DNA from: a virus
Length of the DNA stretch: 27,647 nt
IMG/VR virus record: IMGVR_UViG_3300042301_004023
Location: 1-27,647 of that record
Reading direction: 5' to 3' (one strand)
A program made the translations under genes and the position numbers. The notes under the pieces were generated by a model. That model saw only the letters and a list, made by a program, of their open reading frames with translations. It did not search any database and was not told the DNA's origin. Shown here piece after piece: positions 1,332 to 18,682 of this stretch; within the stretch, counting starts at the first letter, position 1; each line of letters begins with the position of its first letter.

Positions 1332-2823
1332 ATTTAATGTTATTATTCCTTGTGCTGGCGAAGCAACTAGAATGCGTCCAATTACAAGCAATATTTCTAA
1401 GGCGATGGTTCGTGTTAATGGTAAACCTTGCATAGATTTTATTCTTGAAAAAGTCATTGCTGATGGAGCAGATTCTATCATAATTGTAGATGGTGCATAT
1501 AGTGACATTCGTAAATACGTTTCTAAGAAATATAAAGGATATAATATAAAATTTACAGGTGCTTGTAAAAAAGATGGTCCTGGAAATTCAATATGGTCTG
1601 GCTTGAATTATTCTAACTTCATATATCCATTTAATAAAGAACTCCCTCTAGTTGTTTGGCTTGGTGATACAATTCTATTAGATAGCGATATCCCATACGG
1701 TAGTAATTTCTTAATGACTAAAGAAGTAGAATATCATTCTGACTGGTGTCTTTATGATGGAGAAAAATACTATAATAAACCATCTAAAAATATTCCTAAT
1801 GCAAAAGCACTTGTAGGAGTCTATGGATTTGATAAAACTCCAGAACCTTGGGAAAACATCTATCCAGAAATCTATCAGATATTAGAACATCATTCAGATT
1901 CCTATAAAATGATTGATTCTAAAGAATGGTATGACATAGGAAACATTCCTAATTACTATCAAACTTGTGCAGAACTTCTTAAATTAAAGTCTAGAAATTT
2001 CAATGTTCTTAACTATGATAGAGAATTAGGAATTGTAGAAAAAACAGTCATATCAAATGATTATCATGACGTTATTGTTCCAGAAAAGATGTGGTATAAA
2101 AATCTTACAGAAGAACAATCACTTTTTACTCCTAGATTTATTCATAGCGAAAATAAAGATTCTATAAAATTATCTTACGAATCGGGTATTCTACTTTCTG
2201 ACTTGCTTCTATATGAAGAAGTTTCTGATATTACATGGGAATATATTCTTGATAAAGTTATCAAGATAATGGATAAATATTTTCATACAAATAAAAGAAA
2301 TATAAAAACATGGCACGATACATTTTCAATGGGAAAGTATCTAATTGATTATAAAATGTGGTTTGAAAAAACAGAAAATAGATTACAAAAAACTGAATTT
2401 ACAAAAAAAGAAAAATTTAAAATAATTTCATTAGCTAAACAAGTTTCTGAATATCACGAATATGCGGATTGTATCCATGGTGATTTGCATTTAGGAAATA
2501 TTATCTATAATCCTTATTCTGATAAAATTATACTGATTGACCCTAGAGGTGAATATGGAGAAATTCAAAGTGGGGGCAATCCACTTTATGATTGGTGCAA
2601 ACTTTCTCATGATATAGTTCTAGGATATTCATCTATCGTTAATAATTGTGAACAGAATACTAATCTTGTAGAAATCTATAAAAAACTTTGTTACAAATAT
2701 GATATAGATTACGAATTAACAGTAAAGGGTGCGGTTGTTCTTCTAGCTTCTTGTATTCCTCTACATAGTGATGATAGCGAAAGACAAGCAAGAATGATGG
2801 AAAAGGTTAGAGAATATCTATGA
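1306..2823 (+). CDS. Fused sugar nucleotidyltransferase / APH-fold kinase
   Basis: I place the start at ATG 1306 (505 residues): GAGGG precedes it, and the frame extending back to 1213 runs inside the previous gene and adds only 31 unrelated residues. The N-terminal half is a nucleotidyltransferase: VIIPCAGEATRMRPITSNIS (residues 12-31) is the G-x-x-T-R-M-x-P phosphate-binding signature, VVWLGDT is the D-x metal strand, and EWYDIGN is typical of sugar-1-phosphate nucleotidyltransferases. The C-terminal half is a choline/aminoglycoside-type kinase: HGDLHLGN from His391 is the catalytic H-x-D-x-x-x-x-N loop, and IDPRG around residue 411 is the metal-binding site. The pair parallels the separate AmgK (anomeric kinase) and MurU (uridylyltransferase) enzymes, or LicA/LicC for choline. 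Between two glycosyltransferases, it most likely makes their nucleotide-sugar donor from a free sugar (inference). The stop codon overlaps the next ATG as ATGA. Confidence 0.75.
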   Translation: MQNQQSCSKFNVIIPCAGEATRMRPITSNISKAMVRVNGKPCIDFILEKVIADGADSIIIVDGAYSDIRKYVSKKYKGYNIKFTGACKKDGPGNSIWSGLNYSNFIYPFNKELPLVVWLGDTILLDSDIPYGSNFLMTKEVEYHSDWCLYDGEKYYNKPSKNIPNAKALVGVYGFDKTPEPWENIYPEIYQILEHHSDSYKMIDSKEWYDIGNIPNYYQTCAELLKLKSRNFNVLNYDRELGIVEKTVISNDYHDVIVPEKMWYKNLTEEQSLFTPRFIHSENKDSIKLSYESGILLSDLLLYEEVSDITWEYILDKVIKIMDKYFHTNKRNIKTWHDTFSMGKYLIDYKMWFEKTENRLQKTEFTKKEKFKIISLAKQVSEYHEYADCIHGDLHLGNIIYNPYSDKIILIDPRGEYGEIQSGGNPLYDWCKLSHDIVLGYSSIVNNCEQNTNLVEIYKKLCYKYDIDYELTVKGAVVLLASCIPLHSDDSERQARMMEKVREYL

Positions 2824-3707
2824 AAATTATTATAAGAAGTTACGATAGAGAAAATACAATACTTGATAATACTCTAGGGGAATTGCTAAAGCAGAAAGAT
2901 ATAGATCTTGCAGAATGTCTATATATCTATGTTGGTAATCAAGAACAATATGACAAGTATTCTAAAGTTCTTAAAGATTATCCTCTAAAAGAAATCTGTA
3001 TTCGCAGTGAACTTCCTGCAAATGTTCCTTTCAATGACGCTATCAAGAGGTTTCCCGAAGGAGACAAATTAGTTTTTATTGATGATGACCTTTACAAGTT
3101 TAGAATCTATGAAGAAATTGATATGGTTAAAAAGAAATTTACTGATTGCGAAAATCTTGGTGAAATATTAAATTATTGTTTTGATAAAGTAGATAAGAAT
3201 ATTGGTGGTGTAGTCAACATATATTTCGCACCCAATTTAAAATTTAAACAAGGTTCTGCTTTTTATGAATATAAACCAAGAAAAACAGGATCTTCATTCT
3301 GGGGAATGTATAACGATAAAGAATTGCTTGTAAATTATTCTCATAATGATGACGATATGAGAACCGCAATGATACTAGAAAAATATAGCGGGATGTATAA
3401 TCTAAATTGGTTTACAGCAGAAACTAAAGCTGGAGTAACTAAGGGAGGAATGACTTCTGCAGGGGATAGAGATTTCGAAAATCAAAAAGAATTTACAAAA
3501 CAAGTTTGCGAAGAAATGTTTTCTAATGAACCTCTAATTAAAAAATATTTCAGTAGATACAGATATAAAGAAACTATGAACATGCACTTCTTAGATTTGA
3601 AGAATATTAGGGAACTTAGAAAAATTATTCCTAATTGTCAAGAAATAAAGTGGAGTTCATATATGCAAGAATCACCTGATATTAAAAATTATAGTTCGTT
3701 ATTTTAA
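2820..3707 (+). CDS. Glycosyltransferase, paralogue of the truncated first gene
   Basis: A 295-residue protein, translationally coupled to the preceding nucleotidyltransferase/kinase by an ATGA overlap. MKIIIRSYDRE opens the fold, FIDDD (residues 86-90) gives the acidic sugar-nucleotide/metal motif, HNDDDMR (175-181) is a second acidic site, and KGGMTSAGDR (208-217) is the conserved C-terminal loop shared with the truncated gene at 1-380. Similarity to the 525-1331 protein is weaker but runs in the same order. The coupling implies it uses the donor made by the preceding enzyme. A TAGT-like DNA glycosyltransferase is my preferred reading; the exact sugar and acceptor cannot be read from the sequence. 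Confidence 0.65.
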   Translation: MKIIIRSYDRENTILDNTLGELLKQKDIDLAECLYIYVGNQEQYDKYSKVLKDYPLKEICIRSELPANVPFNDAIKRFPEGDKLVFIDDDLYKFRIYEEIDMVKKKFTDCENLGEILNYCFDKVDKNIGGVVNIYFAPNLKFKQGSAFYEYKPRKTGSSFWGMYNDKELLVNYSHNDDDMRTAMILEKYSGMYNLNWFTAETKAGVTKGGMTSAGDRDFENQKEFTKQVCEEMFSNEPLIKKYFSRYRYKETMNMHFLDLKNIRELRKIIPNCQEIKWSSYMQESPDIKNYSSLF

Positions 3708-4926: not shown

Positions 4927-5298
4927 ATGATTAAAACATATAAAGAATTACATGAAAGTATTTTAAACGAAGCGTATAATCCCGATTGGAAAGTTGGTGA
5001 TAAGTTAAAGTTATCTTTTATCGCAAAACCTTCTGATTGGGCAGAAGTAAAGCAACATGCAAAATCTAAAGGCGAGGAAACAATGTGTGTTGTAGAAAAA
5101 GTTATTAGGAATAGCAAAATGTTTCAATCAATAGTTATTGATACATTTGTAAGAATTCCTGAATTAAAAGGAACTGGTGGAAGTGATGGAAAACCTAATG
5201 ATCCCGAAAAAGTTACTGTAATTTATGGAGCAGGAAAAGATGTTATGTTTGTAAATAGTTCTGGATACGATTATCCAAGATATATTGCATTGAATTAA
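4927..5298 (+). CDS. Hypothetical protein with capsid-targeting-like N-terminus
   Basis: A 123-residue protein starting at ATG 4927 after AGAGG. The N-terminus MIKTYKELHESILNEAYN resembles the capsid-targeting peptide of T4 internal proteins (MKTYQEFIAEA), and contains two L-x-E sites (LHE, LNE) of the kind cut by the prohead protease gp21. If cut after LNE, about 108 residues would stay in the head and could be injected into the host. The rest (VGDKLKLSFIAKPSDWAEVK... and a glycine-rich segment) is not recognised. It shares the N-terminal signature, but little else, with the genes at 14568, 16442 and 27284. A late box precedes it. Its stop codon overlaps the convergent GIY-YIG gene by four bases. 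Confidence 0.6.
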   Translation: MIKTYKELHESILNEAYNPDWKVGDKLKLSFIAKPSDWAEVKQHAKSKGEETMCVVEKVIRNSKMFQSIVIDTFVRIPELKGTGGSDGKPNDPEKVTVIYGAGKDVMFVNSSGYDYPRYIALN

Positions 5299-5795
5299 CT
5301 AATTTGTTGAATAGCAACAATATCTTTATGACGAGGTCTTTGATTGTTTAATACTTTGTAAAAGTGTCTTCTATCATAATTATACTTTTCACAAAAATCA
5401 TACATCCCAAATATTTCTTTAGTAGATCCATTATCAAATTCTATCAGATATCTAACTCTATTTTTATCTGATAGAATTTTTCTTTGTTCTGGAGTAACTA
5501 TTCTCCCAACAGTTCCTTCACCACCTTCTGTAAGATTATATCCAGCTTTTTTTGAATTGTATTCTTTTATGAAAAAAGTTTCCATTTCCATAACATGTTC
5601 AAAAGTTGAAGCACAATAGATAACTTCAAATGAAAAATTATCTACTCCATATTTTCTAATTGCTTTACCCACAGCATAGGGAGATTTTTTATGTTCTCTC
5701 CATCTGCGTTTATAGTTATTAGAAATCCCTATATAACATTTTCCATTAATTAAATTTTCTATTTTATATACTGCATAAATATGTGATGCTGACAT
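5295..5795 (-). CDS. GIY-YIG homing endonuclease
   Basis: I choose ATG at 5795 (166 residues, MSASHIYAVYKIENL...) because GGGGA sits six bases upstream; the TTG at 5807 would put that site inside the gene. IYAVYKIENLINGKCYIGIS is the GIY-YIG core with AVY in place of GIY, followed by the catalytic Arg region RRWREHK and a Glu-rich METFFIKEY helix. The NLTEGGEG turn is typical of phage seg-type enzymes. The C-terminal about 40 residues (FCEKYNYDRRHFYKVLNN...RHKD) form a small DNA-binding module also found at the end of the neighbouring HNH enzyme. The enzyme should cut a homologous locus lacking the gene and spread by repair. An AATAAATA box at 5859-5866 on this strand could give late expression, as is common for T4 homing genes. 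Confidence 0.85.
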   Translation of the reverse strand: MSASHIYAVYKIENLINGKCYIGISNNYKRRWREHKKSPYAVGKAIRKYGVDNFSFEVIYCASTFEHVMEMETFFIKEYNSKKAGYNLTEGGEGTVGRIVTPEQRKILSDKNRVRYLIEFDNGSTKEIFGMYDFCEKYNYDRRHFYKVLNNQRPRHKDIVAIQQIS

Positions 5796-5818
5796 ACTGT
5801 TCCCCAAATAATGTTAGA

Positions 5819-5898
5819 GTCGTTAGAGTTTCTCCTACTCGTGAACGACATATATAACTATTTATTGAGATAAAAATGACAGAACGGAATTTAAATAT
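5819..5898. repeat. Degenerate copy of the DUF4815 gene leader and start codons (direct repeat, copy 1)
   Basis: Bases 5859-5898 match 6879-6918 at 38 of 40 positions and include the ATG and first eight codons of the structural gene (here reading MTERNLNI). Upstream, 5819-5824 GTCGTT pairs with 5844-5849 AACGAC, matching in position the GTCTAT/ATAGAC pair of copy 2. The frame from this ATG (5876) runs on and stops at about codon 30, so this copy is dead. Its right end overlaps the 3' end of the HNH gene. Confidence 0.85.
5859..5866 (-). promoter_or_regulatory. Late promoter box AATAAATA for the GIY-YIG gene
   Basis: On the minus strand this reads AATAAATA, one base from the T4 late consensus, about 63 bp before the GIY-YIG start codon. 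The same bases form part of the duplicated leader, so the duplication may have supplied the promoter. Confidence 0.4.
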
Positions 5899-6805
5899 TT
5901 CTTTTCTTAGTAATTTCTATAACATCTTTGTGACGTTTTCTAGAACCATTTACTACAAAATATAAATTTCCAGAATTATACCCATTTTCTTTAGCCCATG
6001 ATGTTAAATTAGTAGTTTCGTATTTTTCTCCATTTTCCTTGATTATGGTGTATATAAAATGACAACGACTTACAGAAGCTTTTATTCTTAATTCCGGATT
6101 ATCAATATATGTTTGTTTAATAGATTTAGAAATTTTTTCTGAAAAATTTCTATCTTGTGATTTAAAAATAGAACATTCTTTCATTTTGGCTTTATACTTT
6201 TCGCACTGCCACAATTTCTTAGAGTTTTTTCTATGTTTTTCTTTATACTCTTCCGATCGCATTATTTTTTTCATTTTTTCTTTAAACTCTTCACACTGCC
6301 ACATTTCTTTACAATTTTTCCTATGTTTTTCTTTACATTCTTCAGATCGCATTATTTTTTCCATTTTTTCTCTATGTTCTTTATTCTTCCATTTATCAGT
6401 AACAATTTTTGATTGATGTGTTGAAAAATTTTTAGTGAGAGTTTCATAAATTCTAGAACTTTTGCATGTGTATCTTTTATGATTTTTCCTGCTATTTAAT
6501 ATACACATACAGTGAAACGCATGGGTCATGCTTTGATTCCGAAACGCTTTCCATAACATCCAATGTGCTATAAAATGTTGCCTTGCTGATAGTTTAATTA
6601 TATTCCATTTATGTTTTCTTCCATCTTTAAATTTCGGAAACATACTTTTAGGAAGAATATGATGCGCTTCTGTATATGTTCCTTTTTCTGGAACATTATT
6701 TCTTGCATATTCTATAAGTTTAATGTATCTAGTCAAATAGATTTCCGATACAGGGTTTGATGATTTTAAATGATTTTCTATAAATTGTATGCTATAAATA
6801 GTCAT
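5891..6805 (-). CDS. HNH homing endonuclease with internal 30-residue repeats
   Basis: A 304-residue protein starting at ATG 6805 with AAGGACAG upstream. The HNH core lies in residues 46-81: EAHHILPKSM (His48, His49), WNIIKLS (Asn68) and RQHFIAHWML (His77, His81). Residues about 135-215 hold two and a half copies of a charged 30-residue unit (KEKMKKIMRSEEYKEKHRKN...LWQC), like the NUMOD3-type DNA-binding repeats of homing enzymes. The end (SWAKENGYNSGNLYFVVNGS...RHKD) is the same small module that ends the GIY-YIG enzyme next door. The gene sits between two copies of the structural gene's leader, a strong sign of insertion by homing. Its C-terminal codons overlap the degenerate copy. Confidence 0.88.
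   Translation of the reverse strand: MTIYSIQFIENHLKSSNPVSEIYLTRYIKLIEYARNNVPEKGTYTEAHHILPKSMFPKFKDGRKHKWNIIKLSARQHFIAHWMLWKAFRNQSMTHAFHCMCILNSRKNHKRYTCKSSRIYETLTKNFSTHQSKIVTDKWKNKEHREKMEKIMRSEECKEKHRKNCKEMWQCEEFKEKMKKIMRSEEYKEKHRKNSKKLWQCEKYKAKMKECSIFKSQDRNFSEKISKSIKQTYIDNPELRIKASVSRCHFIYTIIKENGEKYETTNLTSWAKENGYNSGNLYFVVNGSRKRHKDVIEITKKRNI
6204..6383 (-). repeat. 90-bp tandem repeat inside the HNH gene
   Basis: The motif cactgcc recurs at 6204 and 6294, exactly 90 bp apart, and the bases between repeat with scattered changes. The period equals 30 codons, so the repeat lengthens the DNA-binding arm without shifting the frame. Confidence 0.7.
6793..6800 (+). promoter_or_regulatory. Late promoter box TATAAATA for the structural gene
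   Basis: An exact T4-type late box on the plus strand, about 95 bp before the DUF4815 gene ATG. It lies inside the first codons of the oppositely oriented HNH gene. The resulting leader would include the GTCTAT/ATAGAC dyad. A similar CATAAATA at 5774-5781 precedes the degenerate copy. Confidence 0.5.
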
Positions 6806-6840
6806 GTAAGCTGTCCTTGTGATTAATATTTTAGGGTAGA

Positions 6841-6918
6841 GTCTATAGGAGTTAGGGTTCCGTGATAGACATTAATATTATTTATTGAGATAAAAATGAC
6901 AGAACGGGATCTAAATAT
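6841..6918. repeat. Leader and start codons of the DUF4815 gene (direct repeat, copy 2, functional)
   Basis: Partner of the repeat at 5819-5898, offset by 1020 bp in the conserved part. GTCTAT (6841-6846) can pair with ATAGAC (6865-6870) across an 18-base loop. Both arms of this pair differ from copy 1, but pairing is kept. Confidence 0.85.
6879..6886 (-). promoter_or_regulatory. Late promoter box AATAAATA for the HNH gene
   Basis: The minus strand reads AATAAATA about 73 bp before the HNH start codon. It lies within the plus-strand leader of the structural gene, so transcription in both directions would start in this short region. Confidence 0.4.
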
Positions 6919-9900
6919 CGCACCATATTTTGATGATTTTAACGAGGATAAGCAATTCTATAAAATCCTCTTTAATCCTGGGAGACCTGTCCAAGCAAGG
7001 GAATTAACACAATTACAGAGTAACATACTCAATCAAAACAAACGCATGTTAGAACACTTCTTTGAAGAAGGTTCTATGATACTTCCTGGACAAATAGGTT
7101 ACGATTCTTTATACTCATATGTTAAAATCCAACCACAATATCTAACAGTCGATGTTAATGGTTCCCAATTTGTGGGAAAGGTATTAACAGGGCAAACTTC
7201 TGGAGTTTCGGCTTTAGTCCTACAATATACAAATATTGAGAATAGCGATCCTAAAACTTTTTATGTAAAGTATATTTCTTCTGGGAGTAGCGGAGTTAAT
7301 AAAGTATTTGCTAACGATGAAGTTTTACAAAGCAATCATTCAACTCCTCTATTCTGTAAGAGTGCAACAACTTCGGCGACTGGTAATGCTTCTGCCGCAA
7401 CTATTCAAGAAGGACATTACTTCGTTAATGGTTATGTAGCGAAAGTTCTTAGACAAACAATAGTTCTTGATAAGTATTCTAATTCCCCTTCTTATAAAGT
7501 AGGATTAACAATTCAAGAAAGTATTGTAGAATCTGGTGATGACAATAGTCTACTTGATAACGCTATCGGTTCACCTAATATTTCTGCTCCTGGAGCAGAT
7601 CGTTATAAGATAGAATTAATACTTTCTAAAAAAGCATTAAACGCAACCAGTGAAGAAACCTTCATTGAATTGATGCGATTAGATGCAGGGGAAATTAAAA
7701 GAAAAGTTGTATCACCTGATTATGCGTATCTTGAAGATACTCTAGCACAACGAACATTTGAAGAAAGTGGGAATTATACCGTTAAAGATTTCGGGTTAGA
7801 TATTAGAGAACACCTTAAAGAAAATAATAATGGTGGTAAATATACTTCTGGACAAGGTGGGGTTGAAACGAAAATAGCTATAGGGATAGAACCAGGAGTT
7901 GCCTATGTGAATGGGTATCGCATAGAAAGTGTTGCCACAAATTATATTGATTTAGATAAGTCTAGAACTACAGCACAAGAAAATAACGGGAGTCTATATG
8001 CTGATATTGGTCAATATGTTATTGTAAATAATATCCATAGTTTTCCAAATTTTGTAAATTATGCTCCTATTGATTTACGAAATGCAGTAACTGTAACACG
8101 AGGAACTGCGGCAGGGACAAAAATAGGAACTGCAAGAGTAAGAGGAGTAGAATTAAATAGTGGTGTTGCAGGTTCGGGAACAGAAACCTATAAGATATAT
8201 CTTTTTGATATAAAAATGAATTCTACTAAGTTATTTTCTGAAGTTCGTCAATTATATCTAGCAGGTGCAAACTCATTTACTTCTGATATTGTTTTAAATG
8301 ATGCTTCCCTTGCTGAAATAGTAGAACCTTCTAAAAATGTTTCTATATTTAGATTTCCAATTTCACCAGTTCAAAGAGTTCGAGCACTAGATCTTTCTGT
8401 AGATACTCTATATGACGTTAAACGCACATTTACAGGGACTACGACTTCTAGAAGCATTACATTTAATGCTGGGGCAAATGAAATTTTTGGAAACTTTAAT
8501 ACTTCAGATTGGGTGCTTACAATAACTTCTGGTGCTAATGTTGATAATCTAGTAAATTTATCTGGAAGAATAACATTCGGTGGTTCGCCAGTTGGGAAAG
8601 AAGTTACTATAAATCTTGTGTCTGCGATGCCTGCAGACGCTTCTGTAAGGTTAGTTGCTAATATAACTAAACAAATTGCAGGGGAAAAATCTAAAACTCT
8701 ACAATCAGATACTCGACAAGTTACTACTCCAACATCTACAATGTTACTTAATCGTGCTGACGTTTATAGAATAGTGGGAATATATGATTCTGGGAATTCT
8801 GGAGTAAATGCGGTCAATACAGATTTAAATATTACTAGCAGATATTCTTTAGATACTGGTCAACGTGATAATTTTTACGATATAGGAAGTGTGACTTTAA
8901 AAACTGGGGAATCTGCTCCAGTTGGGAGAGTTCTTATAGAATTTGAATATTTTTCGCATGGTGCAGGTGATTATTTTTCGGTTGATTCCTACACTGGTCA
9001 AATTGCATATAAAGATATCCCTAGTTATATTGCTAGTAATGGTTCTGTATATCAATTAAGGGATTGTTTAGATTATAGACCAAGAATTGATAATACTGGA
9101 GCAAACTTTACAGGGACTGGTTCTTCACTTACAGAACAAGTTCGCCCTAGGAGTAATATTTTTGCAGATTATTCATATTATCTTAACAGAATTGATAAGT
9201 TGATTGTTGATAATGCAGGAAACTTTTCTATTATTAAGGGAGTTCCTGGAATATCTCCAAAACCTCCATTGGACATTGCGAATGGGATGACTCTATATCA
9301 ATTATCTATTCGTGCATATACATTTACCCCTAAAGATATAATTGCAGAATTGATTGATAATCGTAGATATACAATGCGAGATATAGGAAAACTTGAAAAG
9401 CGTATTGATAATTTAGAATACTATACATCACTATCCCTTCTAGAATCTCAAACTTCTACTTTGCAAATTATAGACCCAGTTACAGGGCTAGAAAGGTTTA
9501 AAAATGGATTTGTAGTAGATTCCTTTAGAGACCATGGAGTTGGTGATGTTACTAATGTTGATTATAGATGTTCTATAGATAGGTCTAATGGTGAATTACG
9601 TCCGCCATTCAATGAGAAAAACTTTAAATTAGAGTTTTCTGCAGCAGATTCTAGTAACTATACAAAAACTGGTGATTTAATTACTCTCCCATTTACGGAA
9701 TCTGTTTTCATAAAACAACCTCATGCTTCTAGAGCAGAAAATGTTAATCCATACGCTATCTTCACTTTTAGAGGAACTATTCGACTTACTCCAGAATCTG
9801 ATGACTGGAAAGATACAGAAACACAACCGACTCTAAATGTGAACCTCCCAGACAATGTTGATGTGATAGCACAGATTGCACAACGTGCTGGATTTACAGG

Positions 9901-12079
9901 AACACAGTGGAATTCTTGGCAAGACCAGTGGGCTGGAGCAAATCAAGTAACAAATCAGTCCGTATCTACGACAAGAGTTACTGGAAATAATGTCAATGAA
10001 TTTGGACAATCATGGCCGATAAGATTTGATACTACTACACGAACAACTTTCGCACAAGAAGTAGGACAACAAAGGAGCGGAGTAACAACTTCAATCGTTC
10101 CTAGAACTGTCCAAACTTCGTTAGGAAACAGAGTAGTTTCTGTTGACCTAGTCCCTTTCATGAGAAGTATTGAAATTGGATTTTCTGCTAAACGATTAAA
10201 ACCTCTTACGAGAATCTATGCTTTCTTTGATGGCGAACCAGTTTCTGCATATTGCAAACCAACTGGTGGAAACTATGGTGATGCAATGATAACAGATGCT
10301 AATGGAGCATTTTCTGGTGTCTATAAAATTCCTAACAATAATACTATTAGGTTTAGAACAGGCGAAAGAACTTTTAGATTAACAGATTCTTCTTCAAACA
10401 TTGATGATAATACTACAGAAGCAGAAGTTAATTTTGTTGCTAGAGGATTAATTCAAACACAACAAGAAACTATCTTGTCAACAAGAATTGCACAAGTTGA
10501 TAGAAATCAAGTTTCTGATAGCAGAACAATTACTAGAATTTCTCAAACAACAGCAGTTCAAGAAGGACAATACTTTGACCCACTCGCACAAACTTTCTTG
10601 AATGAAGAAAATGGTGGGTGTTTCATAACTAAGATAGACTTATTCTTCAAATCAAAGGATGCAAATATTCCAGTTACAGTTCAACTTAGAGCAGTTGTTA
10701 ATGGATATCCTGGACCATTCATTTTTCCTTTCGGAGAAGTTACATATAATCCAAGTCAAGTGAATATTTCTGCTAATGGGAGTGTCGCAACAACATTCAC
10801 ATTCCCTTCTCCAGTTTTCTTGATTCCTAATGTAGAATATTGTTTTGTTGTCCTTTCAGATTCTATAGGATATGAGTTATGGACTGCAAGAATCGGGGAT
10901 AAAGAATTAGTAACACAAAATCTAATTTCAGAACAACCTTATATGGGTGTATTGTTTAAATCTCAAAATAGTTCTACTTGGACAGCCGATCAACTTTCAG
11001 ATATTAAATTTAACCTTTATAAAGCACAATTTAACACTGGAGTTTCTTCATTAATAACTTTCAAAAATCAAGTTTTAGATACAGTCACTCTCGTAAATAA
11101 CCCTTTCTATACGACAAGCGCAAGCAATCAAGTTGTTGTTTTTCATAGAAATCATGGATTTACAAATAATTCTAAAGTTACAATTTCCAATGTTGCTTCT
11201 GGGACATATAATGGAATTGCTCATACAGCATTTATAGGAACATTTACTGTCGCAAGTGTAGATTTGGATAGATATACAATAACAGTGGGATCAAATGCAA
11301 ATGCAACTGGAAACACTGGAGGAGCAAACATTATTGCAACTTCAAATATTTCTATGGATATTGCACACCCACAAGTTCAGGAATCTATCATAACAGGAAG
11401 TCAAACAGCATGGGCTTTGAAGACAACTTCTTCAAAACATCCTCATGGGTCACAAACTCCGTATGTTAAAGATTCTTCATTCCAACTTTGTCAAATTAAT
11501 GATAACAATATCTTTAATAATCCTAGACTAGTCGCTTCTCAAGGTAACGAAACGAATTTACTAGCAGGTGCTAAATCCTTTGAATTGCAGGGAGTTCTTG
11601 CAACCGGAAATGCAAATGTATCACCAGTTGTAGATACACAGCGAGTTTCTGTAATTGCAATCAATAATTTGATAGATGCTCCTGAAAGTGGGAATGTTTT
11701 CCAATTTGTTGCAGAAACTTCTGGGCAGAATGGGAGTGCAAAGGCAAAGTATATTACAAAAAGGATTACTCTAAACACACCCGCAATCGGAGTTAAGATT
11801 TTTGCGGCAGTTTCGAGATATAATGATAGTTTTGTAGATTTATATTTTAGAAAAAGAACTAGTGATGATACTACAAAATTTGAAGATATTCCATGGGTGA
11901 AATATGATCCAGTTTCTAATGTTCCTTCAAATAGTGAGAGTAGATATCTTGAATATAATTATCTTATAGATAATCAAGAATCATTTAACACTTTTCAAGT
12001 GAAGTTAGTATTTAGAGGCACGGATTCTACAAAAATAGTTAAACTTACAGATTTGAGAATTATTGCTCTTGGGACTTAG
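6896..12079 (+). CDS. Large virion structural protein, DUF4815 family
   Basis: A 1727-residue protein, the largest in the window. The N-terminus (DLNIAPYFDDFNED, then NPGRPVQARELTQLQSNIL and EEGSMILPGQIGYDS) matches the conserved opening of the DUF4815 phage structural proteins known from cyanophage-like T4 relatives, where they are virion proteins thought to belong to the baseplate or tail-fibre apparatus. The middle is long beta-rich, Ser/Thr/Asn-rich sequence. A stretch near residues 1000-1100 is rich in Thr, Gln and Val. The C-terminus (TPAIGVKIFAAVSRYNDS...) is also conserved in this family as I remember it. There is no signal peptide or membrane segment. Start ATG 6896 fits the family N-terminus. 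An exact late box lies 95 bp upstream. The stop codon overlaps the convergent gene at 12076. Confidence 0.8.
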   Translation: MTERDLNIAPYFDDFNEDKQFYKILFNPGRPVQARELTQLQSNILNQNKRMLEHFFEEGSMILPGQIGYDSLYSYVKIQPQYLTVDVNGSQFVGKVLTGQTSGVSALVLQYTNIENSDPKTFYVKYISSGSSGVNKVFANDEVLQSNHSTPLFCKSATTSATGNASAATIQEGHYFVNGYVAKVLRQTIVLDKYSNSPSYKVGLTIQESIVESGDDNSLLDNAIGSPNISAPGADRYKIELILSKKALNATSEETFIELMRLDAGEIKRKVVSPDYAYLEDTLAQRTFEESGNYTVKDFGLDIREHLKENNNGGKYTSGQGGVETKIAIGIEPGVAYVNGYRIESVATNYIDLDKSRTTAQENNGSLYADIGQYVIVNNIHSFPNFVNYAPIDLRNAVTVTRGTAAGTKIGTARVRGVELNSGVAGSGTETYKIYLFDIKMNSTKLFSEVRQLYLAGANSFTSDIVLNDASLAEIVEPSKNVSIFRFPISPVQRVRALDLSVDTLYDVKRTFTGTTTSRSITFNAGANEIFGNFNTSDWVLTITSGANVDNLVNLSGRITFGGSPVGKEVTINLVSAMPADASVRLVANITKQIAGEKSKTLQSDTRQVTTPTSTMLLNRADVYRIVGIYDSGNSGVNAVNTDLNITSRYSLDTGQRDNFYDIGSVTLKTGESAPVGRVLIEFEYFSHGAGDYFSVDSYTGQIAYKDIPSYIASNGSVYQLRDCLDYRPRIDNTGANFTGTGSSLTEQVRPRSNIFADYSYYLNRIDKLIVDNAGNFSIIKGVPGISPKPPLDIANGMTLYQLSIRAYTFTPKDIIAELIDNRRYTMRDIGKLEKRIDNLEYYTSLSLLESQTSTLQIIDPVTGLERFKNGFVVDSFRDHGVGDVTNVDYRCSIDRSNGELRPPFNEKNFKLEFSAADSSNYTKTGDLITLPFTESVFIKQPHASRAENVNPYAIFTFRGTIRLTPESDDWKDTETQPTLNVNLPDNVDVIAQIAQRAGFTGTQWNSWQDQWAGANQVTNQSVSTTRVTGNNVNEFGQSWPIRFDTTTRTTFAQEVGQQRSGVTTSIVPRTVQTSLGNRVVSVDLVPFMRSIEIGFSAKRLKPLTRIYAFFDGEPVSAYCKPTGGNYGDAMITDANGAFSGVYKIPNNNTIRFRTGERTFRLTDSSSNIDDNTTEAEVNFVARGLIQTQQETILSTRIAQVDRNQVSDSRTITRISQTTAVQEGQYFDPLAQTFLNEENGGCFITKIDLFFKSKDANIPVTVQLRAVVNGYPGPFIFPFGEVTYNPSQVNISANGSVATTFTFPSPVFLIPNVEYCFVVLSDSIGYELWTARIGDKELVTQNLISEQPYMGVLFKSQNSSTWTADQLSDIKFNLYKAQFNTGVSSLITFKNQVLDTVTLVNNPFYTTSASNQVVVFHRNHGFTNNSKVTISNVASGTYNGIAHTAFIGTFTVASVDLDRYTITVGSNANATGNTGGANIIATSNISMDIAHPQVQESIITGSQTAWALKTTSSKHPHGSQTPYVKDSSFQLCQINDNNIFNNPRLVASQGNETNLLAGAKSFELQGVLATGNANVSPVVDTQRVSVIAINNLIDAPESGNVFQFVAETSGQNGSAKAKYITKRITLNTPAIGVKIFAAVSRYNDSFVDLYFRKRTSDDTTKFEDIPWVKYDPVSNVPSNSESRYLEYNYLIDNQESFNTFQVKLVFRGTDSTKIVKLTDLRIIALGT

Positions 12080-13560: not shown

Positions 13561-13794
13561 ATGGATACAGAAATTAATAAAATATCACAATTTAGTTTGA
13601 GAATTGCTTCTCTAATTAGAGAAAAACAAATGTCTTGTATGGAAGCAATACTTCATATTTGTAAGGAAGAAAATGTAGAACCTGAAGATATTGTTTCTTA
13701 TATTCCTGATAGTGTTAAATCGATGATACAGTCAGAAGCAGAAAAAAATAAATTACTAAAGAAAGAAACTATAGAAAAAAATAAATTATTTTAG
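13561..13794 (+). CDS. 33: Late-transcription co-activator gp33
   Basis: A 77-residue protein. MSCMEAILHICKEEN, then DIVSYIPDSVKSMIQSEAE and a KLLKK segment, line up with the core of T4 gp33 (MSYLEA...EEN...IP...IQSEA...LL). The last residues KNKLF give a short C-terminal hydrophobic motif of the sort gp33 uses to bind the sliding clamp gp45. The T4 protein (112 residues) has a longer N-terminus. The protein links RNA polymerase carrying gp55 to the clamp, so late genes with TATAAATA boxes are transcribed from replicating DNA; such boxes occur throughout this window. As in T4, gene 59 lies downstream, here with one small gene in between. Confidence 0.85.
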   Translation: MDTEINKISQFSLRIASLIREKQMSCMEAILHICKEENVEPEDIVSYIPDSVKSMIQSEAEKNKLLKKETIEKNKLF

Positions 13795-15027: not shown

Positions 15028-15035
15028 AATAAATA
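15028..15035 (+). promoter_or_regulatory. Late promoter box AATAAATA of gene 15, almost leaderless
   Basis: Only six bases separate the box from the ATG at 15042. T4 late transcripts start about six bases after the box, so the mRNA would begin at or next to the start codon. There is no ribosome site. Confidence 0.6.
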
Positions 15036-15041
15036 ACATTT

Positions 15042-15827
15042 ATGTTAAACACCCCTTTCTATAATGCTTCTATAAGAAAATATGCTGCTTCTTTCGGGAA
15101 ACTCTTTTCGAATATTTCTATCATTAGAGGACAAGAATTAAAGAAAGTTCCCATAGCTTTTGAAAGTAGACAACAATGGTTACAGAGATTAAATCAAAGA
15201 AATACTATTGATGACTCTAATGCAGAAGTTAAGATGACCCTTCCTAGAATGTCATTCAATATTTCTGGCTTTTCATATGATACGGAAAGAGCAACTTCTA
15301 AATTTACTAGTTCATATCATAATACTAATAATGTTACGAAAAGGCAATTCAGAAGTGTTCCTTATAATATTGATTTTTCATTGAATATTGTTTCTAATAG
15401 CATTACAGATACCCTTCAAATTATAGAGCAAATCATACCTTATTTTAATCCAGAATATCACCTGAATATAAAGGATAATCCTCTTACAGAAGAAAGCTCT
15501 GCACTTCCTCTAACTTTAAATTCTTCTAGCTTTGTGAGTGATGTAGAAGGATTCGTAGGACAACGAAGATACACCTTTGCAGAACTACAATTTACTCTAC
15601 AAGGTAATTTTTACTTTGGTAGCGAAACTGGTCATCTAATAGAATATGTTGATGTTAATTTATATAGCATGGACGAAAATGAAGAAATTAATGAATATCT
15701 TGCTAAATTAGAAATTGATGCACAAGATATTAATTTTGAAACGACTTTTTCTGATAATACAAATATTAGCGCAGATAATATATATAACATTATAGAAACA
15801 ATAACAGAATATCAAGTCAATGAATAA
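15042..15827 (+). CDS. 15: Tail sheath stabiliser and completion protein gp15
   Basis: A 261-residue protein. FYNASIRKYAASFGKLFSNI at the N-terminus matches T4 gp15 (FYNSSFRRYATLMGDLFSNI) closely. VPIAFESRQQWLQRLN matches VPITYASKEHFMMKLN, TLPRMSFNISGFSYD matches ILPRINLHLVDFSYN, and IIEQIIPYFNPEYH matches IVEQILPYFQPHFN. Length is close to T4 (272). In T4 a gp15 hexamer caps the finished tail tube and sheath and receives the head. As in T4 the terminase small subunit follows. The ATG has a late box six bases upstream and no ribosome site. The final codons overlap gene 16. Confidence 0.92.
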   Translation: MLNTPFYNASIRKYAASFGKLFSNISIIRGQELKKVPIAFESRQQWLQRLNQRNTIDDSNAEVKMTLPRMSFNISGFSYDTERATSKFTSSYHNTNNVTKRQFRSVPYNIDFSLNIVSNSITDTLQIIEQIIPYFNPEYHLNIKDNPLTEESSALPLTLNSSSFVSDVEGFVGQRRYTFAELQFTLQGNFYFGSETGHLIEYVDVNLYSMDENEEINEYLAKLEIDAQDINFETTFSDNTNISADNIYNIIETITEYQVNE

Positions 15828-18400: not shown

Positions 18401-18669
18401 TCTTTATTCCTCAAATATGACATACCGCCAGTTTTATTCTGTAATAGAATAGATTTAGAATTGTTTTTCTTACAATACTCAATTACATCAGAATGTTTAT
18501 TATCATCAAAATATTTTTTCCAACGTTCGTATGGAGTTTTGCCATTCCTACATTTTTCGTATGTGTCACAATCAACTTCTATAACTGGGTGTCCCATAAA
18601 CTGTTTCTTAGGTTTGAAGGGTTCTTGAGTAGATACTTGATTAGATCCAGAATTGTTTGTAGTTTCCAT
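18394..18669 (-). CDS. Hypothetical late protein, 91 aa
   Basis: METTNNSGSNQVSTQEPFKP is a polar, probably disordered N-terminus; the rest (HPVIEVDCDTYEKCRNG, then WKKYFDDNKHSDVIEYCKKN) has five Cys residues and a helical centre. No signal or membrane segment. Start ATG 18669 has an exact TATAAATA five bases upstream and no ribosome site, so the late mRNA should begin at the start codon. It precedes the spanin pair in the same unit and could be a lysis or head-tail accessory, but I do not recognise it. Confidence 0.6.
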   Translation of the reverse strand: METTNNSGSNQVSTQEPFKPKKQFMGHPVIEVDCDTYEKCRNGKTPYERWKKYFDDNKHSDVIEYCKKNNSKSILLQNKTGGMSYLRNKEC

Positions 18670-18674
18670 AATAT

Positions 18675-18682
18675 TATTTATA
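18675..18682 (-). promoter_or_regulatory. Late promoter box TATAAATA, leaderless geometry
   Basis: Exact late consensus with only five bases (ATATT) before ATG 18669. A start six bases after the box would be the A of the ATG. It lies inside the 3' end of the preceding gene and should drive the lysis unit including the spanins. Confidence 0.65.

Follow-up and report, generated by a model that had tools for sequence, protein, structure and literature searches.

Endonuclease genes and leader elements in the window

The window, i.e. the whole stretch analysed here, is a 27.6-kb virus fragment (27,647 nt) from IMG/VR with T4-like genes for a tail sheath stabiliser, a helicase loader and a late promoter transcriptional regulator (13561..13794, + strand; phrog_254, E 1.2e-14), and this predicted regulator gene of its own shows that the phage uses T4-type late transcription. 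Late-promoter-like boxes stand at 15028-15044 (+) and 18667-18682 (-), 5-6 nt 5' of a start codon, placed as they would be for leaderless late mRNAs, with box counts in the window near chance. Three genes in a row (525-1331, 1213-2823 and 2820-3707) resemble a TET-associated glycosyltransferase, a nucleotidyltransferase and an HMC-glucosyltransferase, from which hypermodified DNA appears likely in this phage.

Two - strand endonuclease genes are placed between a small + strand ORF (4927-5298) and a vrlC-like structural gene (6896..12079, + strand; phrog_358 and tblastn to VrlC proteins). HEG1 (5298..5795, - strand) encodes a GIY-YIG homing endonuclease (PF01541, E 3.5e-11; phrog_314, E 3.3e-30); its start codon was shifted upstream and the protein begins MSASHIY. 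HEG2 (5894..6805, - strand) encodes a homing endonuclease of phrog_655 (E 1.2e-36), of HNH type by PHROG description (phrog_12434 ‘HNH endonuclease’, E 1.9e-15), which begins MTIY. One copy of a leader element adjoins each of the two genes, and the vrlC-like gene lies downstream of copy 2. Beside copy 1 stands a 9-codon fragment of the vrlC-like 5' end (5876..5902, + strand), which pairwise alignment identifies as a diverged duplicate of 6896-6922 (two of the three differences are silent) and within which the HEG2 stop codon falls. In pairwise alignment the two leader copies, nine vrlC codons included, make up a diverged direct repeat. The sequence suggests that HEG2 may have arrived from another phage together with its own leader and vrlC start.

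The first-pass annotation had described a six-pair dyad in both leaders, which is present as reported: GTCGTT (5819-5824) pairs with AACGAC (5844-5849) around a loop of 19 in copy 1, and GTCTAT (6841-6846) with ATAGAC (6865-6870) around a loop of 18 in copy 2. In copy 1 the dyad ends 27 bases short of the ATG at 5876, in copy 2 26 bases short of the ATG at 6896. The compensating changes between the copies are likewise confirmed: both sides are altered in two of the six pairs, and the remaining four are the same in each copy. Six pairs alone are not significant. When columns identical between the copies were kept constant and the letters that vary in copy 2 were shuffled 200,000 times, the six pairs formed in 14% of permutations (a null of about 0.14) and all ten pairs in 0.3% (0.003). 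The original six-pair claim guessed correctly from slender evidence.

On the + strand, both copies fold into a bulged motif larger than the reported dyad, with 6 bp, an A opposite GUG and then 4 bp. From sequence and folding, this hairpin, P1', extends in copy 1 over 5819..5849 (+ strand; 63.8 bits with model R2) and consists of a lower stem (5819-5824/5844-5849), an A5825-U5842 pair with bulged G5841 and G5843 on either side, an upper stem (5826-5829/5837-5840) and a loop (5830-5836). The P1' of copy 2, drawn in the same way (6841..6870, + strand; 63.7 bits with R2), has a lower stem (6841-6846/6865-6870), an A6847-U6863 pair with bulged G6862 and G6864, an upper stem (6848-6851/6858-6861) that includes one G.U on the + strand, and a loop (6852-6857). 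A second hairpin, P2' (5792..5814, + strand), is formed in copy 1 by ACAT (5792-5795) with ATGT (5811-5814), as read from the sequence and from P2 covariation in relatives; its opposite strand holds the SD-like GGGG and the start codon of HEG1. P2' is weak in copy 2, with a doubtful 3-bp counterpart only (6815-6817/6833-6835).

Relatives, covariation and the folding strand

The 80 loci fetched through vrlC included no close relatives of the window, all being at most 45% identical, with leaders that could not be aligned. The exact leader 28-mer had no match in IMG/VR and a 20-base pattern none in the genome collection; HEG1 (GIY-YIG) and a vrlC fragment confirmed no relative as queries, and blastn of one leader against cultured phages gave only short chance-like matches. 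A query with the tail sheath stabiliser returned two identical IMG/VR contigs, L104 and L105, in which this protein is 100% identical to that of the window and neither of which reaches the leader region. A pattern search of IMG/VR with the letters common to the copies fixed (GTC/GAC, TCACG and CTA) and the stem positions free returned 68 loci. The element, with TAGAGTC and a TAAATA box or close equivalent, is held by 49 of them, nearly always with an endonuclease-like ORF, and these represent 23 distinct leaders besides the two of the window. The other 19, which lack TAGAGTC and the boxes and several of which have a broken stem, were left out before alignment A2 (L116, L123, L130, L137, L139, L142, L143, L146 and L165, and ten of one coding family, L111, L115, L122, L129, L154, L160, L162, L163, L170 and L173); counts from A2 are partly selected because of this removal and the pattern-fixed letters.

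A covariance model (R1) picked up divergent members. Among 20 whole records 19 matched, with nine copies in a 329-kb record (G001) and eight in a 195-kb record; by eye, the P1 sequences seen in G001 differ among its copies. A direct search of ten endonuclease regions from cultured phages found the element in Variovorax phage V45v66 (57.2 bits, matched by region and not by whole record) and Pseudoalteromonas phage vB_Psh_XG4 (43.3 bits), and no match in the other eight. The negatives from fast whole-record scans of cultured phages are weak, since the fast search misses known members, such as L084 with 45 bits by direct search and 0 matches in the fast scan of its record.

In these relatives the hairpin proves to be under selection and kept by compensating changes, as the first-pass annotation had supposed. 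A second pattern test of IMG/VR left three lower pairs and the inner stem free and removed no row; it covers 80 loci among 120 stretches (matches listed). All three free lower-stem pairs are Watson-Crick in 83 of the 83 matches listed (249/249), each of which has at least two further upper pairs, and the hairpin is therefore certain once relatives are counted. Aligned leaders covary far above every shuffle: 94.7% of cells are paired in 60 distinct rows, compared with 63.2% after shuffling (0 of 500 shuffles as high) and at most 42% for slid structures, and both sides changed in 264 cells, compared with 75.7 in shuffles, with all 14 pairs affected. For 88 distinct rows from the loci of the second pattern test, 93.4% of cells are paired vs 74.7% shuffled (0/500). 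Both alignments were fitted to the covariance model, a bias of which the second pattern test is free. P2 covaries in both alignments too, and no one-sided change to another standard pair occurs in P1 in either; the outcome that the annotation had named as refuting, relatives with a single altered arm, was not encountered. Among the 60 rows both bulged bases are invariant, being C when read on the endonuclease strand and G in the RNA; the pair that they enclose alternates between A-U and G-C (31 and 25, with four A.C).

Wobble pairs reveal which strand folds. On the endonuclease strand, the P1 cells that depart from Watson-Crick pairing are 14 A.C, 0 G.U and 1 other among 1435, and P2 has 95 A.C, 1 G.U and 22 other among 712 (144 distinct rows each), together 109 A.C vs 1 G.U. 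This count omits only the L134 row, while L157:1-53 and L134:5471-5530 are omitted from most other counts of alignment A3. An A.C on the endonuclease strand is a G.U on the opposite strand. The RNA under selection is thus antisense to the 5' UTR of the endonuclease gene, which places the hairpin of the window on the + strand, where the annotation had drawn it. The wobbles span both letter orders and at least 101 distinct local sequences, although related rows are not independent, so that a single inherited event is no explanation. In 133 of 143 leaders the antisense strand gives the more stable fold of the whole leader; for P1 alone this holds in only 82 of 143. Even on the folding strand, G.U is rare in P1 (14 of 1435), which is stricter than expected of an ordinary RNA stem. 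The conserved fold lies opposite the gene, as in a cis-antisense RNA of a mobile-element gene. A leader in the sense-strand mRNA had been our initial reading and was dropped on the wobble count; kink-turn, group II domain V and hammerhead found no support by eye as identities.

Endonuclease partners and predicted promoter boxes

The element stands just upstream of genes of unrelated homing-endonuclease families (GIY-YIG, HNH and NUMOD3): among 53 downstream proteins scanned, phrog_314 was found in 27, phrog_655 in 26 and phrog_12434 in 14 (overlapping sets), NUMOD3 in 19, GIY-YIG in 5 and HNH_3 in 4, with further endonuclease families too. Two of ten odd downstream proteins examined singly had no endonuclease match (L108:4710-5135 and L211:594-1604). 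Behind the leader of L108:4710-5135(-), L212:507-962(+) and L110:5908-6354(+) are proteins that start MDIYDPIGKALGL, with NUMOD3, weak or no endonuclease matches; they are maybe DNA-binding remnants or a new type. L136, L214 and L219 combine an intact leader with a short endonuclease frame (12-44 aa) and possibly represent an RNA without a working enzyme. By eye, the endonuclease 3' ends have no common boundary or sequence.

The proposal that the hairpin is the leader of the vrlC-like structural gene as such was not borne out, since 49 of the 80 vrlC loci, searched with the covariance model, gave only one weak match (E 0.3) and element homologues adjoin many different genes. The element is assigned to the endonuclease genes because, among 21 loci retrieved solely through similarity to the HEG2 protein, 10 have it directly upstream of the endonuclease. 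A role as an endonuclease recognition site is likewise unsupported, as unrelated endonucleases have one structure in common with varying letters.

Mirror-image T4-type late-promoter boxes stand on both sides of the element. The predicted boxes of the HEG1 and HEG2 mRNAs, both AATAAATA, lie on the - strand at 5859..5866, 9 nt before P1, and at 6879..6886, 8 nt before P1. A TAAATA box occurs 2-8 nt before P1 on the endonuclease strand in 126 of 143 leaders and at exactly 5 nt in 84, most often as TATAAATA (42), GATAAATA (30) or ACTAAATA (25), besides others; T4 late promoters have five nt from the box to +1. In L133, L135, L138, L144 and L113 a TATAAATA box lies 23-38 nt from P1, with, by eye, a seemingly extra hairpin in between.

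The box predicted for the copy 1 antisense RNA, CATAAATA (5774..5781, + strand), lies within the His-Ile-Tyr codons of HEG1 and is followed by GCTG at 5788-5791; that for copy 2, TATAAATA (6793..6800, + strand), lies within codons 3-5 of HEG2, with GCTG at 6810-6813. Of 130 ORFs with 60 or more aa, 108 carry the antisense box (TATTTA) between -4 and +24 relative to the ATG; its frequency within ORF bodies would predict 0.8. The motif makes proteins of differing families begin Met-x-Ile-Tyr. It is in the Ile-Tyr frame in 93 ORFs and in other frames in 15 (e.g. Met-Tyr-Leu or Met-Ile-Phe-Ile), and the persistence of the letters in these 15 argues that the letters are conserved and not the protein. 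Box and CAGC were both found in 111 of 143 leaders, and 82 of these have a gap of 5 between the two; the box was absent by search in 32 of 143. A candidate antisense-RNA promoter, recognised by consensus, thus lies inside the gene start, and box and P2/P1 flank the SD and AUG, so that complementarity to the translation start region follows from position. After P1' the antisense strand reads A-Y and is then U-rich. This tract could terminate the RNA at a length of about 70 nt; As break it up, and it overlaps with the promoter box of the sense strand, which makes termination uncertain.

Proposed antisense control of homing endonucleases

In IS10, RNA-OUT (69 nt) base-pairs at the transposase start and keeps ribosomes away, with multi-copy inhibition as the result (PMC5006887). 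Convergent late promoters, an RNA mirroring the 5' UTR and loops that lie opposite the ribosome site, as in IS10, led us to choose antisense control for the present element. Building on the observed structure, its folding strand, its link with endonuclease genes and the conserved boxes at fixed spacing, we infer transcription, RNA ends, pairing and repression, and hold with moderate confidence that an antisense RNA resembling RNA-OUT controls endonuclease translation. Accordingly conceived, the 5' UTR and first codons of each endonuclease gene would hold a divergent small antisense RNA gene, in which (i) transcription directed outward by the late box in codons 2-4 would begin at the conserved GCUG, just 5' of the endonuclease AUG, and yield an RNA of about 70 nt; (ii) the RNA would fold into P2', its loop usually carrying CUCCUU-like anti-Shine-Dalgarno letters, and into P1', with 6 bp, two bulged Gs around the covarying pair, 4 bp and a loop, and would probably end in the U-rich tract after P1'; (iii) it would be fully complementary to the endonuclease mRNA from the predicted +1 of the latter to the AUG; (iv) pairing of the two would block ribosome binding, as RNA-OUT does on the IS10 transposase mRNA.

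RNA-OUT is a stem-loop with bulges, and a bulged stem-loop in an antisense RNA is common to both systems, as are a mobile-element nuclease gene with two converging promoters at its 5' end and an antisense RNA of about 70 nt, here predicted, over the ribosome site. In contrast to RNA-OUT, the element has phage late promoters, homing endonucleases in place of a transposase, two hairpins, one RNA family across unrelated proteins and complementarity to the whole predicted 5' UTR. It has no sequence match to RNA-OUT: at gathering score, no Rfam family was found in the window, and only tRNA in eight related loci. We raise, as a tentative extension, that a mobile antisense RNA gene might travel with unrelated endonucleases, outlive swaps of them and act in trans. 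Loop and stem vary among the copies of a single genome, and on this reading every RNA would silence its own kind during co-infection, as copy-number or incompatibility control for homing elements.

One bias is not needed by the antisense model: the neighbour on the 3' side is co-directional with the RNA in 87 of 143 cases and opposed in 37 (13 unclear, 5 short, 1 none). It would fit an outward late promoter with a structured leader that keeps the neighbour gene expressed after endonuclease insertion and so favours retention of the insertion. In the window, the vrlC-like gene is read in the same direction as the predicted copy 2 antisense RNA and begins 26 nt after P1', and promoters embedded in T4 endonuclease genes have been described (PMC2988022). 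We nevertheless consider this explanation unlikely, as 37 of the 124 neighbours with a clear direction are wrongly oriented, the start codon lies anywhere between 0 and 339 nt away, and it gives no account of an RNA that mirrors the 5' UTR exactly.

The structure could instead work in the endonuclease mRNA, its 5' leader hairpins hiding the ribosome site or protecting the 5' end on the model of the T4 I-TevI, segB and Aeh1 mobE hairpins. Such control, with mRNA hairpins and embedded promoters, is described for T-even endonucleases, and a late promoter with hairpins at the gene start, as here, for I-TevI, I-TevII, I-TevIII, segB, Aeh1 mobE and seg43(25) (PMC2988022). The late box at +1 spacing before P1 and a P2 that does enclose the SD or AUG agree with it. 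However, A.C stands where G.U would be expected on the endonuclease strand (109 vs 1), 133 of 143 leaders fold more stably on the other strand, and, in contrast to the T-even hairpins, which act in the mRNA, the element folds opposite to it and spans endonuclease types as one family. A T-even type fold hiding the ribosome site is thus decidedly unlikely.

Strict pairing, invariant bulged Gs, one 5' module common to unrelated endonucleases and its duplication and divergence in the window might also be expected of a one-strand DNA hairpin, similar to attC or a Y1-transposase end, that serves as a recombination or capture site joining the module to different endonucleases; a G.T-tolerant single-stranded DNA fold would yield the same strand asymmetry. 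Such a site is improbable, since the endonuclease 3' ends share no sequence by eye and promoter boxes, SD and AUG spacing would be left without explanation. An ordinary duplicated late promoter with a chance dyad would fit the diverged direct repeat and the insignificance of the six pairs alone (0.14) but is practically negligible given covariation across more than 140 distinct relatives, and is refuted by the second pattern test (83/83, among the matches listed).

Returning to antisense control, CfrI of cyanophage S-PM2 is an antisense RNA of unknown function over a homing-endonuclease gene in a T4-like phage, differing from the element in its length of about 225 nt and its extension over psbA (PMC2984593). 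The S-PM2 record gave no R2 match by the fast search, which misses weak members. In titles and abstracts of the open-licence literature, no antisense or conserved leader RNA of phage endonuclease genes matching the element family was found. As judged from sequence comparison, the element is a widespread, previously uncatalogued putative small RNA lying opposite the 5' ends of many unrelated homing-endonuclease genes.

Free-standing homing endonucleases rank with the most common selfish genes of T4-like phages, and, to our knowledge, how they avoid mistimed cutting of their own host phage is an open question. By analogy with the antisense RNA that silences IS10 transposase, the small RNA probably silences these endonuclease genes. 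The putative new RNA family has cultured representatives in which this can be tested. If true, the common Met-x-Ile-Tyr start would be explained as an overlapping promoter, and endonucleases of unrelated origin would have a general off-switch in the antisense RNA that they share.
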